Assembly (NCBI GenBank): GCA_013792005.1 | Contig: VMSU01000049.1 | Span: forward strand, 1-40,572 | Source of the DNA: Desulfobulbaceae bacterium | GTDB lineage: Bacteria; Desulfobacterota; Desulfobulbia; Desulfobulbales; VMSU01 | Reading direction: 5' to 3' | Length of the DNA stretch: 40,572 bases | Part shown: piece by piece, positions 2,921 to 30,085 of the stretch | Numbering within the stretch: position 1 is the first letter of the stretch | How the letters are laid out: each line of letters begins with the position of its first letter | The notes under the pieces: generated by a model | Told to the model about the DNA's origin: nothing | The model's input: only the letters and a program-made list of their open reading frames with translations | Database searches by the model: none | Translations under genes and position numbers: made by a program

Positions 2921-3898
2921 TCAGTCCTGCACTAACGGGAGAAGCAGGGAAACAACTCGGTCACGAGCCTCTTGAAGAGTTTCACCATTACCAAACTTAC
3001 AGCCTGCCGCGTTTCGATGTCCACCACCCCCAAGTCGACGAGCGATCTTAGCGACATCGTAAAGCGTACCCTTGGAGCGCATACTAACACTGATGACATC
3101 CGCCTTTTCCTTCAAAAACACAGCGACCTTAACCGAAGCGAGAGAACGGGGATAATTAATAAAAGATTCGGTATCTTCAGAGACTGCCCCCGTAGACTCA
3201 AACATCGCTTTAGTGGCGGTGATAATGGCTAATTTGCCCTCAGAATGGAGTTCAAGAGTAGATAATACTGCCTGCAGAAGATGTAACCGGTTTTCTGTAA
3301 AATTATCAAATAATTTCCCAGCAACATGCTCGGGGTTGATTCCTTTAGCAACCAGCTCGCCGGCAACAGCAAAAGTTTGGGGTGTCGTTGATGCGTACTT
3401 GAAAGACCCGGTGTCAGAAACAATAGCGGTATAGAGACAAAACGCGGCATCAAGAGAAATTTCCGCCCCCAATGCCTGGGCCAGTTCATATACCATATCA
3501 CCGGTAGATGCACGCCCTGACTGAACCCAGCGCAAATCACCGAACTCTTTATGCCCGGCATGATGATCAATGACAATCAAGGGATGAACCGTCAGCATCC
3601 TCTCGACTGAGCTTCCGAGCCGGAAACAGTCGCCGCAATCAAGCACAATAACACAATCCACAGTCGCCAAGTTAGGTAAATGTGTCGTCAGTTTTTCACA
3701 ACCTGGCAAAAAACTATAGAGGTGAGACACGGGCTCCTCACTATAGCGGATAACCTTTTTTCCCATTCCCTCAAGAATGTCACCCAACCCAAGCTGTGAG
3801 CCCAAAGCATCTCCGTCTGGAAAGACGTGGGTCGCAACAAGAATAGTCTCAGCTGTCTGGATCGTCTTGACTATCTGGTTCAGATGATTGTCGCTCAT
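2921..3898 (-). CDS. nrnA: DHH/DHHA1 phosphoesterase, bifunctional oligoribonuclease/pAp phosphatase NrnA-like
   Basis: Members of this family degrade nano-RNAs and dephosphorylate pAp. Of about 325 residues, the N-terminal DHH domain carries HVFPDGDALGSQLGL, a VIVLDCGD motif, the name-giving DHH in LIVIDHHAGHKEFG and a later SDTGSFKYASTT. The C-terminal DHHA1 domain ends with GGGGHRNAAGC. The start is the ATG at 3898, with GGGAG seven bases upstream, rather than the in-frame TTG two codons earlier. The 5' end overlaps the 3' end of rbfA by about 50 bases, so the two are translationally linked. It sits between rbfA and truB, positioned to clean up RNA fragments produced by the downstream PNPase; that link is inferred. 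Confidence 0.93.
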   Translation of the reverse strand: MSDNHLNQIVKTIQTAETILVATHVFPDGDALGSQLGLGDILEGMGKKVIRYSEEPVSHLYSFLPGCEKLTTHLPNLATVDCVIVLDCGDCFRLGSSVERMLTVHPLIVIDHHAGHKEFGDLRWVQSGRASTGDMVYELAQALGAEISLDAAFCLYTAIVSDTGSFKYASTTPQTFAVAGELVAKGINPEHVAGKLFDNFTENRLHLLQAVLSTLELHSEGKLAIITATKAMFESTGAVSEDTESFINYPRSLASVKVAVFLKEKADVISVSMRSKGTLYDVAKIARRLGGGGHRNAAGCKFGNGETLQEARDRVVSLLLPLVQD

Positions 3899-19566: not shown

Positions 19567-19958
19567 GCCTTAAATTTCCTGCTTCTCATGCCATGTAATT
19601 TCTTTATCTCCCCCCGTCACCTCCCTACTTTTAGTACCGCCACTCTGTTTAAACCCTATGCCTCTGACAGTAGATGAGAGAAGAGGACGTTGTTTCTTTC
19701 TGCATTTCCATTCGCCTTATCCGTTTGCTATTGAAGGAGAATCCTGGCAAGCGATCACCGGATACCCCATCTGCTTCGCAGCCTCGCTTACCTGCTTAGC
19801 CATCCCGTGACTTTTTGCGAGATTATCAAGTATAGCTCGCAGCCCCCTTTCGCGCATCTGGGGCACCCTGCAATCGCTTACAGTTCCAAGGTGGAGCGCA
19901 GTTTCTAGTCGCTGCCCCGTGATCACTTACGAATCCTGACCTACCCGGCGCAGGGCAC
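19567..19958. other. Gene-poor interval between tonB and the TonB receptor
   Basis: About 390 bases with no convincing gene. A short minus-strand frame at 19717-19926 looks like repeat-derived shadow coding. The interval holds a partial MITE-like right end (listed separately). The remainder shows nothing recognised, though the receptor promoter should lie here. Confidence 0.5.
19793..19827. repeat. Partial copy of the 151-bp MITE-like element (right end only)
   Basis: About 35 bases (TGCTTAGCCATCCC, then CTTTTTGCGAGATTATC) match the right end of the elements at 28777-28927 and 29531-29681 with a few differences. The expected left end with GATGGCGTCGC is not found 151 bases upstream. It is therefore a truncated or heavily diverged copy. 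Confidence 0.6.
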
Positions 19959-21985: not shown

Positions 21986-23295
21986 CAGTGTTGTCCGGTT
22001 AAGGACTTGCAGGTAAATTTCTTGGCGGAGTATTATCGTTCAAGCCAGAAACATATGGGCCACAATCCGCTTCACGGGTTTCGTTGAGGATCTTGCTTCG
22101 CAATTGACGTACCCTTTTAATGTTTACCGATTCTCCGTGCTCTTCGTGGCAGTAAATGGCCAGAAGCAGATAGGTGATAAGGCCAGCAAGAATTTGAATC
22201 TTGAGGCCATGCTCACTGCGGGAGATTAAATGGTAGCCGCGCAGGTGGCGTTTCCACCATGCGAAAAACTTTTCAATATCCCAGCGTAGCTTATATATTT
22301 GGGATATTTGCTCAGCTGTCAGGTCGAATCGGTCAGTGGCAATCCAATATTCCTTGCCATCAACTCGATAGCCAACAAGACGCAGTGGTTTCTCGGTCTG
22401 ATTAATGCCCGATTGGCCTAGTTGAACCATGGCATCGTAAAAGATGAAGCTGTTCACTGGCTGCTGGAAATTCTCCAGGCAGGTTGTGATGGTGTGTTGC
22501 CTTTGATCCTGCAGACGAAGTGCTTTCCCTCTGCCTGCCAGAGATCAAAATCTTTGTGGCTCTGATGCCCTCGATCCATGATACCGGGTTCGCCAGGCTT
22601 CAGGATTTTGGAGACAAAGGGACGCTCGCCACCGTTGCCGTCGGTGAGAAATATTCTTTTGGAAGCGAACGGTTAACATCGAAACCGATGTGGATTTTTG
22701 CTTTTTTTGATCCGCCACGATAGGAGGCCTATTCCATTGAAAGCACAGAGTCGATGAGCGAGCCATCAATAGCAACCAGTTGGCCAAGCTCAGCGTATTG
22801 TTGCGGTAATATTTGAGCCACGGTTTTTTGAAGTTCCTGAAGACGAAAAGGAACTGTTCAAGCCCTCGTTCTCTCATGGCTTCAAAGAAGGCGCTTTTGC
22901 TAATTCCACCAGGCGGAGCTATGACGCTTCTGGCGAAATCGTCATCCTGCAAAACCTGGATGAGATGGCGACCGGAGGTATGCTCTTCCAAGTGGAAAAA
23001 GATGAATGCATTAAGTTGGTGTTCGAATTCCATTTATAGTGGCCTGTTGCATCGTGAGACAAGGCGAGGAGCACTAAACAAGATATTGTTTAGTGGTTGA
23101 CAAAGGTTTCTGAAGGAAACGGTTGAGTAGCTTTTTCTGACTGGCATCGATCGTAGCATTTTTCATAACTCCATAGAATGGTTAGTAATTATGAAATTTC
23201 GCCAACCGTTTTTTGCCTCCTTATCAAGACATTTTTCTTATTTTTGATAAATATTTCAGATTGTTATAATGCAATTCTCTAACCGGACAACACTG
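21986..23295 (-). mobile_element. IS4-type insertion sequence, 1310 bp, inactive
   Basis: The element is bounded by perfect 16-bp inverted repeats, CAGTGTTGTCCGGTTA at 21986-22001 and its complement at 23280-23295. One degraded transposase gene lies on the minus strand and its stop codon falls inside the left repeat. No matching target duplication is visible at the two flanks, suggesting later rearrangement or decay. A short truncated frame beginning near 23166 precedes the transposase. Confidence 0.88.
21999..23052 (-). pseudogene. IS4 family transposase, multiply disrupted
   Basis: Pieces of one transposase are found in successive frames. The N-terminal part HQLNAFIFFHLEEHTSG...SAFFEAMRERGLEQF is followed in another frame by VAQILPQQYAELGQLVAIDG, then a TAG where a Trp is expected after VLSME, then SKKAKIHIGFDVNRSLP. 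After a further shift come GGERPFVSK, PGIMDRGHQSH and HFVCRIKGN. The C-terminal part has YKLRWDIEKFFAWWKRHLRGYH, the DDE-type Y-(2)-R-(3)-E-(6)-K signature region. At least three frameshifts and one nonsense change are evident, so it is non-functional. Confidence 0.88.
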
Positions 23296-26586: not shown

Positions 26587-28716
26587 TTACAGCGTGAACA
26601 ACAGATCGCTATAGGTCGGCACCGGCCAAAGATCGGCAGGGGTGATGGCTTCAAGGGCATCGATATCGGCACGCAGTTTGGACATGACAACTGCCACCTT
26701 ATCGCGATAAGCCGCAGCCTGCTTGTCAACCTTATCAATGGCCTTGGCCTTGTTGGTCTCATCCTCAAGCTTCACCACGTTTTTTGCGGCTGACTCAAGT
26801 AGTGCCCCGGCCTGGGCCAGGAGATCCTTCTGCACAGAAGAGTATTTCCCGGTCACATTGATCGAATTGCCCAATTCGGTCATAAAAGTAATTACCGACG
26901 GGATATACAACCGCTTGACCATTTGAATAGAAGTTTGAGCTTCGATATTGATTTGCTTGGCGTACTGCTCGACATAAATGTCATAACGGGAGTGCAACTC
27001 CTCTTTGCTCAATACCTTATACGCCCCAAACATTTTTATAGCCTTGGGGGTAATAAAGGCCTTAAAGGCATCGATTGCGGTCTTGACATTGGGCAATTTG
27101 CGCTTCTCTGCTTCGCTCGCCCAGTCCTCTGAATAGTTATTGCCGTTAAATACGATTCGACCATGCTTCTCAAGGGTCTCCTTAAGAAAAGCCACAATCT
27201 CGGCATTAACATCCTTGGCCTTCTCCAAGCGGGTAGCGATTTCATCCAAGGCCTCGGCGGCAATGGTATTGAGCGCAACATTGGGTCCAGCTATGGACTG
27301 AGACGAACCGACCATCCGAAATTCAAACTTATTGCCGGTAAAAGCAAAGGGCGAGGTCCGGTTACGGTCAGTGTTGTCCTTCGGCAACTCCGGCAAGGAA
27401 TCAACACCGATATTAAGGGACTTACAGATTCCGCCTTTGCAGTTTTTTTCTCCCTTAGCGACCCTATCAAAAACGTCATAAAGTTCATCACCCAAAAAGA
27501 CAGAGATGATGGCAGGGGGAGCCTCGTTGGCGCCCAACCGATGATCATTTCCCGCACTCCCGCAGGTGCCGCGAAGGATGTCAGCATGAGTATCCACCGC
27601 CCTAAGCATGGCACAGACAAAGACCAAGAACTGAGCGTTATCAGCCGGAGTACTTCCTGGCTCAAGAAGATTAATGCCATCATCAGTGCTCAATGACCAG
27701 TTATTGTGCTTACCAGAACCATTGACTCCAGCAAAGGGCTTCTCATGAAGCAGGCAGACCATGCCATGGCGGAGGGCCATCTTCTGCATAGTCTCCATGA
27801 CCAACTGATTGTGGTCGGTGGCGATATTGGTGGTTGCAAATACCGGAGCCATTTCAAACTGGCCAGGGGCAACCTCATTGTGCTTGGTTTTTGAGGCGAT
27901 CCCCATTTTCCACAGCTCTATATCCAGATCCTTAATATAGGCTGAAACCCGATCCTTGATGGCGCCGAAGTACTGGTCTTCCAGCTCCTGACCCTTCGGA
28001 GCAGGAGCGCCGAATAAAGTCCGACCACAAGAAAGCAGATCCAAGCGCTCAGCGAGAAGATCCTGATCAATAAGAAAATACTCCTGCTCAGCCCCAACCG
28101 TTGAAGTTACCCTGACGGACGTGGTGTTACCCATGGCCTGCAGTACACGCAATGCCTGCTTGGAAACTGCCTCCATGGCACGAAGCAGGGGAGTTTTTTT
28201 ATCTAGGGCTTGACCCGTGTAGGAACAAAAAGCCGTGGGGATGCACAAAGTGACATCGCCAACTTCGTCCTCCTTGAGGAAGGCCGGTGAAGTACAGTCC
28301 CAGGCGGTATATCCCCGGGCTTCAAAAGTAGCGCGCAGTCCTCCACTGGGAAAAGATGAGGCATCCGGCTCGCCCTGGATAAGCTGCTTGCCAGAGAACT
28401 CCATGATCACACCACCATCGCTGGTCGGCGAAATAAAAGAATCATGCTTCTCGGCGGTGATGCCGGTCAGCGGCTGAAACCAATGGGTATAGTGGGAGGC
28501 ACCCTTTTCAATCGCCCAATCCTTCATGGCATTGGCTACCACCGCAGCCACCTCGGGCTGCAGGGAAGTTCCCATATCTATAGTCTGACGCAACGCCTTA
28601 TAGGTCTCTTTTGGCAGGCGTTCCTTCATTGCCCTGAAATTAAAGACATTGCTCCCAAATAAAGTTGGAAGCGACTGAGCCATCATATCGTTATTTTTAC
28701 ATCCGCACTTACCCAT
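26587..28716 (-). CDS. glnN: Glutamine synthetase type III
   Basis: The enzyme condenses glutamate and ammonia with ATP to glutamine. The 709-residue length and motifs match GSIII and not the ~450-470-residue GSI. They include the N-terminal [17 protein letters not shown], a central [34 protein letters not shown] (nucleotide and glutamate site) and [21 protein letters not shown]. The ATG at 28716 has GAGGAG nine bases upstream, so the Cys-containing [10 protein letters not shown] start is accepted. It stands alone between the terminator and a 151-bp repeat; no PII-type or NtrC-type gene is adjacent. Confidence 0.95.
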
Positions 28717-28776
28717 CTAAGTATTCTCCTCGTTTTTTGGTTCCTGAGCACAGCACACTTTTCCACAATGAACATT

Positions 28777-28927
28777 GATGGCGTCGCAAAAAATCCGATC
28801 TACTGCGTTGCGTAGAGGTTTTACTCATTCGGCATACCATATGTACGTCCTCACTCGCAAAACGCACCCCGCACCTTGTATATCGGCCCTCTTTCTTAGC
28901 CATCGGCTATCTTTTTGCGAGACTGTC
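28777..28927 (-). mobile_element. 151-bp MITE-like element, copy 1
   Basis: The element begins GATGGCGTCGCAAAAA and ends TTTTTGCGAGACTGTC, giving terminal inverted repeats that share TCGCAAAAA. It is flanked on both sides by the direct duplication AACATT (28771-28776 and 28928-28933). Together with the same-length copy at 29531-29681 this shows a transposed, gene-less element. The strand is arbitrary. Confidence 0.85.
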
Positions 28928-29124
28928 AACATTAGCAAATGTGATCTTTTTATCACATTATCGTGCATCGCGAAAGAAAATATTTACAACGCCGTAATAA
29001 ATATCGCCACACAAGCGGTGCTGTTCCTCTTTGAGCGACACCCTGTCACGACCTGTGTTCAGACAAAAAGCGGGCTGACCGGAAGAAATCCCGCCATACA
29101 GTTACCGCTTTTCATAACAAATAA

Positions 29125-29445
29125 TTACGGCATACACTTGTAAACACTGAACGATCGCTCTCCATTAATAACTTCAGAAGCGACCGTCAGAGTATCTCCC
29201 CCCATCTCGGCCGCGCTGTTTCGGCCAAGGGTCATCAACTCGCGCGCCACCTTTCCTTCATCACGCTTAAGATCGCCGACAAAGGTGTCTCTCACTGAGA
29301 CCTTTGTCTGGCCGATACTTTTACATCCCTGCACTTCAGATGTTGCCACCACCCGCACATTATCTCCGTTGTGGCTCAATTTAACCCAGGTGCAGCTACT
29401 CACTGCCAAGAGGATTACAGCTGATACAGTTGTTAATTTCCACAT
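29125..29445 (-). CDS. Small lipoprotein, DUF4156-like
   Basis: This 106-residue protein has a lipoprotein signal with lipobox-like AVSSC (Cys near residue 18). The downstream portion VQGCKSIGQTKVSV, RELMTLGRNSAAEMGGDTL and the final YKCMP resemble the DUF4156/YjeI group of envelope lipoproteins. The ATG at 29445 has AAGGAG nine bases upstream, and an upstream open frame is not used. It probably sits on the periplasmic face of the outer membrane; its function is unknown. It is bracketed by two same-orientation copies of the 151-bp element, so it could be lost by recombination between them. Confidence 0.85.
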   Translation of the reverse strand: MWKLTTVSAVILLAVSSCTWVKLSHNGDNVRVVATSEVQGCKSIGQTKVSVRDTFVGDLKRDEGKVARELMTLGRNSAAEMGGDTLTVASEVINGERSFSVYKCMP

Positions 29446-29530
29446 AACGACTCTCTCCTTAAAAAAATTTCCCGTATCTTCCACACAGGACATGATCGTT
29501 TCTGTCCGGGAGATAAAGACACCTATACTT

Positions 29531-29681
29531 GATGGCGTCGCAAAAAATCCGATCTACTGCGTTGCGTGGCGGTTTTGCTCGTTCGGCATACCATATGTAT
29601 GGCCTCACTCACAGAACACACCCCGCGCCTTGTATATCGAACCTTTTGCTTAGCCATCCCCAGACTTTTTGCGAGATTGTC
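29531..29681 (-). mobile_element. 151-bp MITE-like element, copy 2
   Basis: It has the same length and orientation as the copy at 28777-28927, about 85-90% identical by eye, with the same GATGGCGTCGCAAAAA start and a TTTTTGCGAGATTGTC end. The flanking duplication is ATACTT on each side (29525-29530 and 29682-29687). It sits between a zinc-ribbon gene and a lipoprotein gene. Confidence 0.87.
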
Positions 29682-29701
29682 ATACTTGCCATAGCAACAT
29701 G

Positions 29702-29935
29702 TCAAAACAACATCTCTAAAAACCGGTGGTGAAAGTGCGACAAATTCGCATTGCACTCACCACAGAAAAACTTGATCTCTCCCAAAACCTGAGATTCGTC
29801 ACCATCCTGAGTAAAACTACAATCGGTATTTTGTAAGTACTGGGTAGTAATCACCACCCCATCGGCAACTTCAAAAAAATCGGTATCGTTGCCACACTCA
29901 GGGCAGACAATCCGAAGAGATGTCGTCTGGTTCAT
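29702..29935 (-). CDS. Small zinc-ribbon protein, 77 residues
   Basis: The product has CPEC (11-14) and CGEC (58-61) knuckles with a third Cys at 39, and a His-rich end (HFHH, 67-70), typical of a compact zinc-ribbon. The ATG at 29935 with AAGAAGA upstream is chosen over the longer frame, which has no family signature before it. No known family is recognised. The 3' end lies only 20 bases from the 151-bp repeat. It may be a nucleic-acid-binding or adaptor protein, but no role is assigned. Confidence 0.65.
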   Translation of the reverse strand: MNQTTSLRIVCPECGNDTDFFEVADGVVITTQYLQNTDCSFTQDGDESQVLGEIKFFCGECNANLSHFHHRFLEMLF

Positions 29936-30085
29936 AAGTCTTCTTTCTTCACTTGGACACATCGCACGGATCTGTATCGAGTTACACATCCCGTGCTGGG
30001 TAGGTGCCAATATTGTAAGGTTTATAGTATCTCTCCCGCTGCAGGCGGCAGAAGAGCGCCAATCTAAGACCGAGTCTAAGTCTTG

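Follow-up and report, generated by a model that had tools for sequence, protein, structure and literature searches.

A large family of probable MITEs with a conserved hairpin core in Desulfobulbales and related bacteria

Results

Two copies and a fragment in one contig

Two intergenic sequences of 151 bp in the genome of a Desulfobulbaceae bacterium very probably represent a MITE family, that is, non-autonomous DNA transposons of about 150–162 bp that are moved in trans. The window, by which we mean the whole stretch of 40,572 bp that was analysed, is contig C49 of a 4.0-Mb, sulfate-reducer-like genome in 252 contigs. The two copies have the equal length and exact positions that had been proposed for them (Table 1), correspond to the base form of the element without inserted modules, and lie in the same orientation with approximately 600 bp between them. 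Their identity had been put at 85–90% by eye and is 87% when computed, with a match that can be extended to 154 nt in a repeat search of the window. Copy 2 is a member of a subfamily and shares 94–97% identity with several other copies. Both copies are bounded by imperfect inverted ends of 16 bp (GATGGCGTCGCAAAAA / GAC(A/G)(A/G)TCTCGCAAAAA), i.e., the terminal inverted repeats that characterize MITEs are present (GATGGCGTCGCAAAAA / GAYRRTCTCGCAAAAA). These common ends, as well as the different 6-bp duplications that flank the two copies, bear out the original prediction.

Copy 1 has as its neighbours a gene for a DUF4156 protein (29125–29493, minus strand) and a gene for a type III glutamine synthetase (start codon at 28716), and is placed 61 bp upstream of the latter. 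Copy 2 is neighboured by the DUF4156 gene and an open frame at 29702–30010. One further fragment, also anticipated, consists of the inner site (see below) and the right end only. It lies inside a repeat of a second palindromic family (about 19745–19895) and is directly followed by AAGTATAGCTCG; its target and its host repeat are of the same kind as those at locus L103, read on the opposite strand. The left part of the fragment is missing, and module-type sequence (CCTCGCTTACC) is found at the junction. This arrangement could plausibly have arisen by recombination between module copies in the two families. The second palindromic repeat, which may be one family or a related pair with ends near GTAAACGTTCACCGGGCACCCC and TAACTATTCAGCCGCACCCC, was also seen at L149 (600–960), L207 (750–1135) and L219–L225. 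It both receives MITE insertions and occurs inside MITEs.

Table 1. Features of the MITE family in the window
Feature	Position	Strand	Remarks
MITE fragment	19793..19827	+	inner site and right end only (CTTAGCCATC...TTTTTGCGAGATTATC)
Target duplication, left of copy 1	28771..28776	.	AACATT
MITE copy 1	28777..28927	+	151 bp, base form without inserted modules
Left end of copy 1	28777..28792	+	GATGGCGTCGCAAAAA
Hairpin core of copy 1	28777..28904	+	bases 1–128; fold and covariation
Inner end-like site of copy 1	28895..28904	-	CTTAGCCATC; 23 bp from right end
Right end of copy 1	28912..28927	-	inward reading GACAGTCTCGCAAAAA
Target duplication, right of copy 1	28928..28933	.	AACATT
Target duplication, left of copy 2	29525..29530	.	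ATACTT
MITE copy 2	29531..29681	+	151 bp, base form; subfamily member
Left end of copy 2	29531..29546	+	GATGGCGTCGCAAAAA
Hairpin core of copy 2	29531..29658	+	bases 1–128; fold and covariation
Inner end-like site of copy 2	29643..29658	-	inward reading GATGGCTAAGCAAAAG; 23 bp from right end
Right end of copy 2	29666..29681	-	inward reading GACAATCTCGCAAAAA
Target duplication, right of copy 2	29682..29687	.	ATACTT

Transposition and target site

Transposition of the gene-less element, as originally proposed, is evident from its many copies, duplications that differ from site to site and the existence of empty sites. Perfect duplications of 6 bp (134 pairs) or 7 bp (36 pairs) flank 170 of the 298 end pairs, compared to a mean of 2.4 matching pairs and a maximum of 7 when the right flanks are shuffled among pairs. 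The duplications also differ between copies and are thus not part of the repeat. Of 184 distinct copies, 170 have duplications that start with A and end with T, and the consensus of the target with its flanks, TY[AWNNWT]RA, is palindromic. The A....T rule is valid for duplications of both lengths, which is most simply explained by joining of both element ends 5´ of an A. A 4-bp duplication with T/A edges belonging to the element was considered and rejected, since the 12 copies with duplications that break the rule still match at both sides. The A and the T are therefore those of the target.

Empty sites were obtained from nested insertions into repeats. The copy at L103 (4959–5109) interrupts another palindromic repeat (CCAGCCGGCGAGCTATACTTTCGGTATGTGAGCCGGCTGG), of which several intact copies (92–97% identity) have the sequence ATACTTT once, and the copy at L371 (2858–2990) interrupts an older copy of the same MITE family. 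Judged by these sites, insertion is clean. The element ranges from 80 to 236 bp across copies and contributes no open frame of gene length itself. Insertions tend to spare long open frames; 14% of the copies, versus 74% of control positions, fall inside a frame of at least 250 codons.

Copy number and distribution

The 151-bp unit recurs throughout this genome and in relatives, as the original prediction called for. Searching this genome with the element gave at least 42 matches among those listed, and the 4.0 Mb contain 106 occurrences of the end motif GRNRGNSTCGCAAAAA and none of the reversed control pattern. In the parts of this genome that were covered, 67 distinct copies have matching duplications; the number across all loci is 187. 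A sequence search of 193 genomes of the class (Desulfobulbales and relatives) detected the element in 81, and 35 of 58 genomes of relatives carry it. Named records with the end block are mostly bins of Desulfobulbaceae, Desulfobulbales and Desulfurivibrionaceae, with a few Desulfuromonadales. The end block is also found on contigs that were binned as Sideroxydans or Chloroflexi, perhaps wrongly. Taken by themselves, these records would place the window in Desulfobulbales. In the single-contig genome G133, the two complementary end patterns occur 52 and 65 times and combine to form more than 50 near-identical copies of 162 bp, and in draft assemblies the element tends to occur at contig ends.

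Sequence searches of plasmids and phages gave no match to the element. Among viral-class contigs from IMG/VR, prophage-borne relatives of the MITE were observed at L298 (273) and L405 (2332), which suggests that the family can be carried by prophages. A different repeat bearing a MITE-like end is found at L410 (116), and the remaining end matches on viral contigs are due to chance and mostly fall within coding sequence.

A conserved hairpin and an inner end-like site

Bases 1–128 of the element constitute one long hairpin that extends from GATGGC of the left end to an internal GCCATC, and its stems are conserved through compensatory changes. In a set of 29 representatives with less than 88% identity, 86.1% of the cells in the inner region of the hairpin are paired, 20 of 28 pairs have double changes, and the covariation is 0.391. 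The corresponding values from shuffled controls, which ignore relatedness, are 73.2%, 14.3 pairs and 0.173. Slid controls, which unlike the shuffle retain relatedness, reach at most 48% paired cells and a covariation of at most 0.111. Column pair 16–78, for example, is UA in 15 representatives and CG in 12, and column pair 27–66 is CG, UA or GC. Conservation extends to the unpaired blocks of the internal loops and to the apex (CATACCATATGTATG).

The internal block, read inward as GATGGCTAAGCAAAAG, resembles the element ends and makes up a third, inner end-like site. Its distance from the right end is 22–24 bp in 123 copies, 27–28 bp in 4, 33–34 bp in 30 and 44 bp in 1, and the tail sequence in between is variable. 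Because the spacing changes in steps near 10.5 bp, these counts, in which copies within a genome are not independent, suggest that one protein touches the inner site and the right end on the same face of the helix.

Inserted modules and other interiors

Longer copies fall into classes of 174–176, 184, 199–200, 206–209 and 234–236 bp because short hairpin modules of 24–34 nt are found at fixed positions of the core. Module A (CGGAGTCTC-N-TCGCTTACC), a hairpin of 24–25 nt, has 56 distinct contexts; TG comes directly after the hairpin in 54 of these and T directly before it in 46. A slightly looser pattern has 58 occurrences in this genome. Module A is present also within the second palindromic repeat family (GTAAACGTTCACCGGGCACCCC...), and thus in two unrelated repeat families, as well as in a few stand-alone places, and looks like a very small mobile unit in its own right. 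Examples were seen at L073 (2858–2921), L061 (2776–3800), L099 (384 and 3121–3185) and L228 (964). Module B (CCCCGTCCAACACCAGCGGGGATTGAACTGAAT) occurs 24 times in the genome, has a T before it in each of 19 contexts, and interrupts T/TG in one fixed MITE site, CTGCGT/TGCG (the slash marks the interruption; examples at L060 3163, L066 5527 and L079 3028). Going by sequence, the hairpin of module B appears similar to a CRISPR repeat (GCGGGGATTGAAC). The modules are reminiscent of REP/RAYT (Y1) systems in being short hairpins in front of a fixed dinucleotide without evident duplication. They are, however, absent from all Y1 transposase loci of this genome, which leaves a RAYT unsupported as the mover of the modules.

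The same kind of ends and duplications surround unrelated palindromic repeats at L352 (132 bp), L374 (255 bp) and L377 (190 bp). Since these loci keep the ends and the duplications, it appears that the ends define the mobile unit and that the interior is exchangeable. Most of the copies fetched, a set retrieved largely by searching with the 128-bp hairpin, have this hairpin as their interior. Forms of 80 bp that have lost most of the hairpin are found at L065 (5846), L082 (2902), L085 (2937), L087 (2971), L095 (3007) and L308 (10896), each with its own duplication, and an 8-bp direct repeat (CTTTTGCT) marks the point of the deletion. This means that the short form is mobile on its own, or that one deletion has arisen repeatedly. 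As these forms could also arise in place via the direct repeat, they are not taken as proof that the hairpin is dispensable.

Search for an autonomous partner

The original prediction pointed to a full insertion sequence (IS) with the same ends as something to look for, and here the outcome was negative. Several hundred loci were searched for ends at most 6 kb apart with duplications of 5–9 bp, tolerating up to three diverged bases in the ends, and two transposase families were tested by profile. An autonomous partner with these ends was not found in the sampled loci of this genome, the examined relatives, G133 or the viral contigs. A scan of the whole single contig of G133 gave no transposase gene between such ends, and the unpaired or oddly spaced ends examined in G133 are MITEs, degraded copies or chance matches. 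Pairing of ends in the several hundred loci yielded nothing but MITEs and chance pairs, among the latter those of 4969 bp at L113 and 2190 bp at L361, and the apparent pairs of 1.9–2.1 kb on contig C156 of the present genome and at 2220964–2223095 of G133 each consist of two separate MITEs. Loci of ISNCY_2 have no such ends.

The window itself contains a degraded IS (21986–23295) in which a DDE_Tnp_1 gene is split over two frames, with the domain detected only in the downstream piece. The 26-nt ends of this remnant (CAGTGTTGTCCGGTTAAG...) are unrelated to those of the MITE, in agreement with the earlier view that it is not the source. The mobilising transposase may, as proposed, be located elsewhere.

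Discussion

By the features tested, an identified partner excepted, the element is a MITE. It is not of the ISDol1 type by its ends, not ERIC by its sequence, and not a known Rfam family. A transposase making staggered cuts would recognise the outer ends (GATGNNNTCGYAAAAA), and probably also the inner end-like site near the right end. Joining would then take place 5´ of an A on both strands of the short, palindromic and A+T-rich target, such that insertion leaves the duplications of 6–7 bp. The chemistry would be of the DDE type.

Alternative explanations differ in what they take to be primary. With only the window in view, two copies separated by some 600 bp in the same orientation could be a chance or duplicated intergenic repeat that has never been mobile, but this is refuted by the different duplications, by dozens of other copies in unrelated locations, and by the empty sites. 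The identity of the mover is a separate matter. Insertion sequences of the ISNCY_1 group make 6-bp duplications, and an ISNCY_1-type (ISDol1-like) element of the same order was the first candidate on account of this length. Such transposases are indeed present in the order (one complete genome has nine identical copies), so that duplication length and order are held in common with the MITE. The ends found, however, read GTGTCTGTCC.../GTTTCTGTCC..., accompanied by duplications (e.g., TAACTA), and do not resemble GATGGCGTCGCAAAAA; the candidate is refuted for the copies tested, and we regard it as very improbable in general.

The fold could instead be primary and mobility secondary, as in a dispersed functional RNA or a protein-binding hairpin acting as an ERIC- or REP-like regulator. 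The double changes in the core, in excess of the shuffled controls, and the conserved internal loops and apex argue for such a role. Against it, each copy has its own duplication and, together with the empty sites, this implies that the unit moves as a transposon; unrelated interiors with the same ends also carry duplications. Rfam models gave no match in the window region, and elsewhere two sub-threshold microRNA matches in one copy. Moreover, paired changes could also stem from repair between the arms of the quasi-palindrome. On balance, a primarily functional hairpin seems unlikely. Quite unlikely, too, is a composite in which the 128-bp core, flanked by transposon ends, is selected for a function other than transposition (as RNA, or as a cruciform to which a host protein binds), and a stand-alone protein of host, phage or plasmid serves as transposase. 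If this were true, the MITE family would persist across an order without an autonomous partner. The reading that we favour remains that of a MITE moved in trans.

No published name for the family was found in the literature searched, and it is an ordinary kind of element that forms a large, apparently unnamed family. The ERIC sequence of enterobacteria is a conserved intergenic palindrome of about 127 bp, which compares with the 128-bp hairpin core described here, but its ends differ, and the present element has no sequence match in a collection of 5,426 E. coli genomes. The Chunjie MITE of Geobacter uraniireducens was reportedly described by Chen et al. in 2008. Like the present element, Chunjie is gene-less and intergenic with inverted ends and direct repeats, and the account cited here gives tens of full copies (178–235 bp) and many partial ones, and counts ERIC elements among MITEs (PMC10969869); its host is related at the phylum level, and the two are compared by description only. 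Palindromic, intergenic multicopy sequences are likewise seen in the related bacteria Geobacter bemidjiensis and Pelobacter carbinolicus, in the passages cited without a description of ends or duplications (PMC2996986, PMC3543383). Going by descriptions only, Chunjie and these multicopy sequences would be the likeliest published relatives.

In conclusion, we describe an abundant MITE family across an environmentally important bacterial order, with ends, target preference and empty sites measured and with a covarying fold. The family raises two testable questions, namely which transposase moves it without a visible autonomous partner, and why the hairpin is conserved though other interiors share the ends and the duplications.
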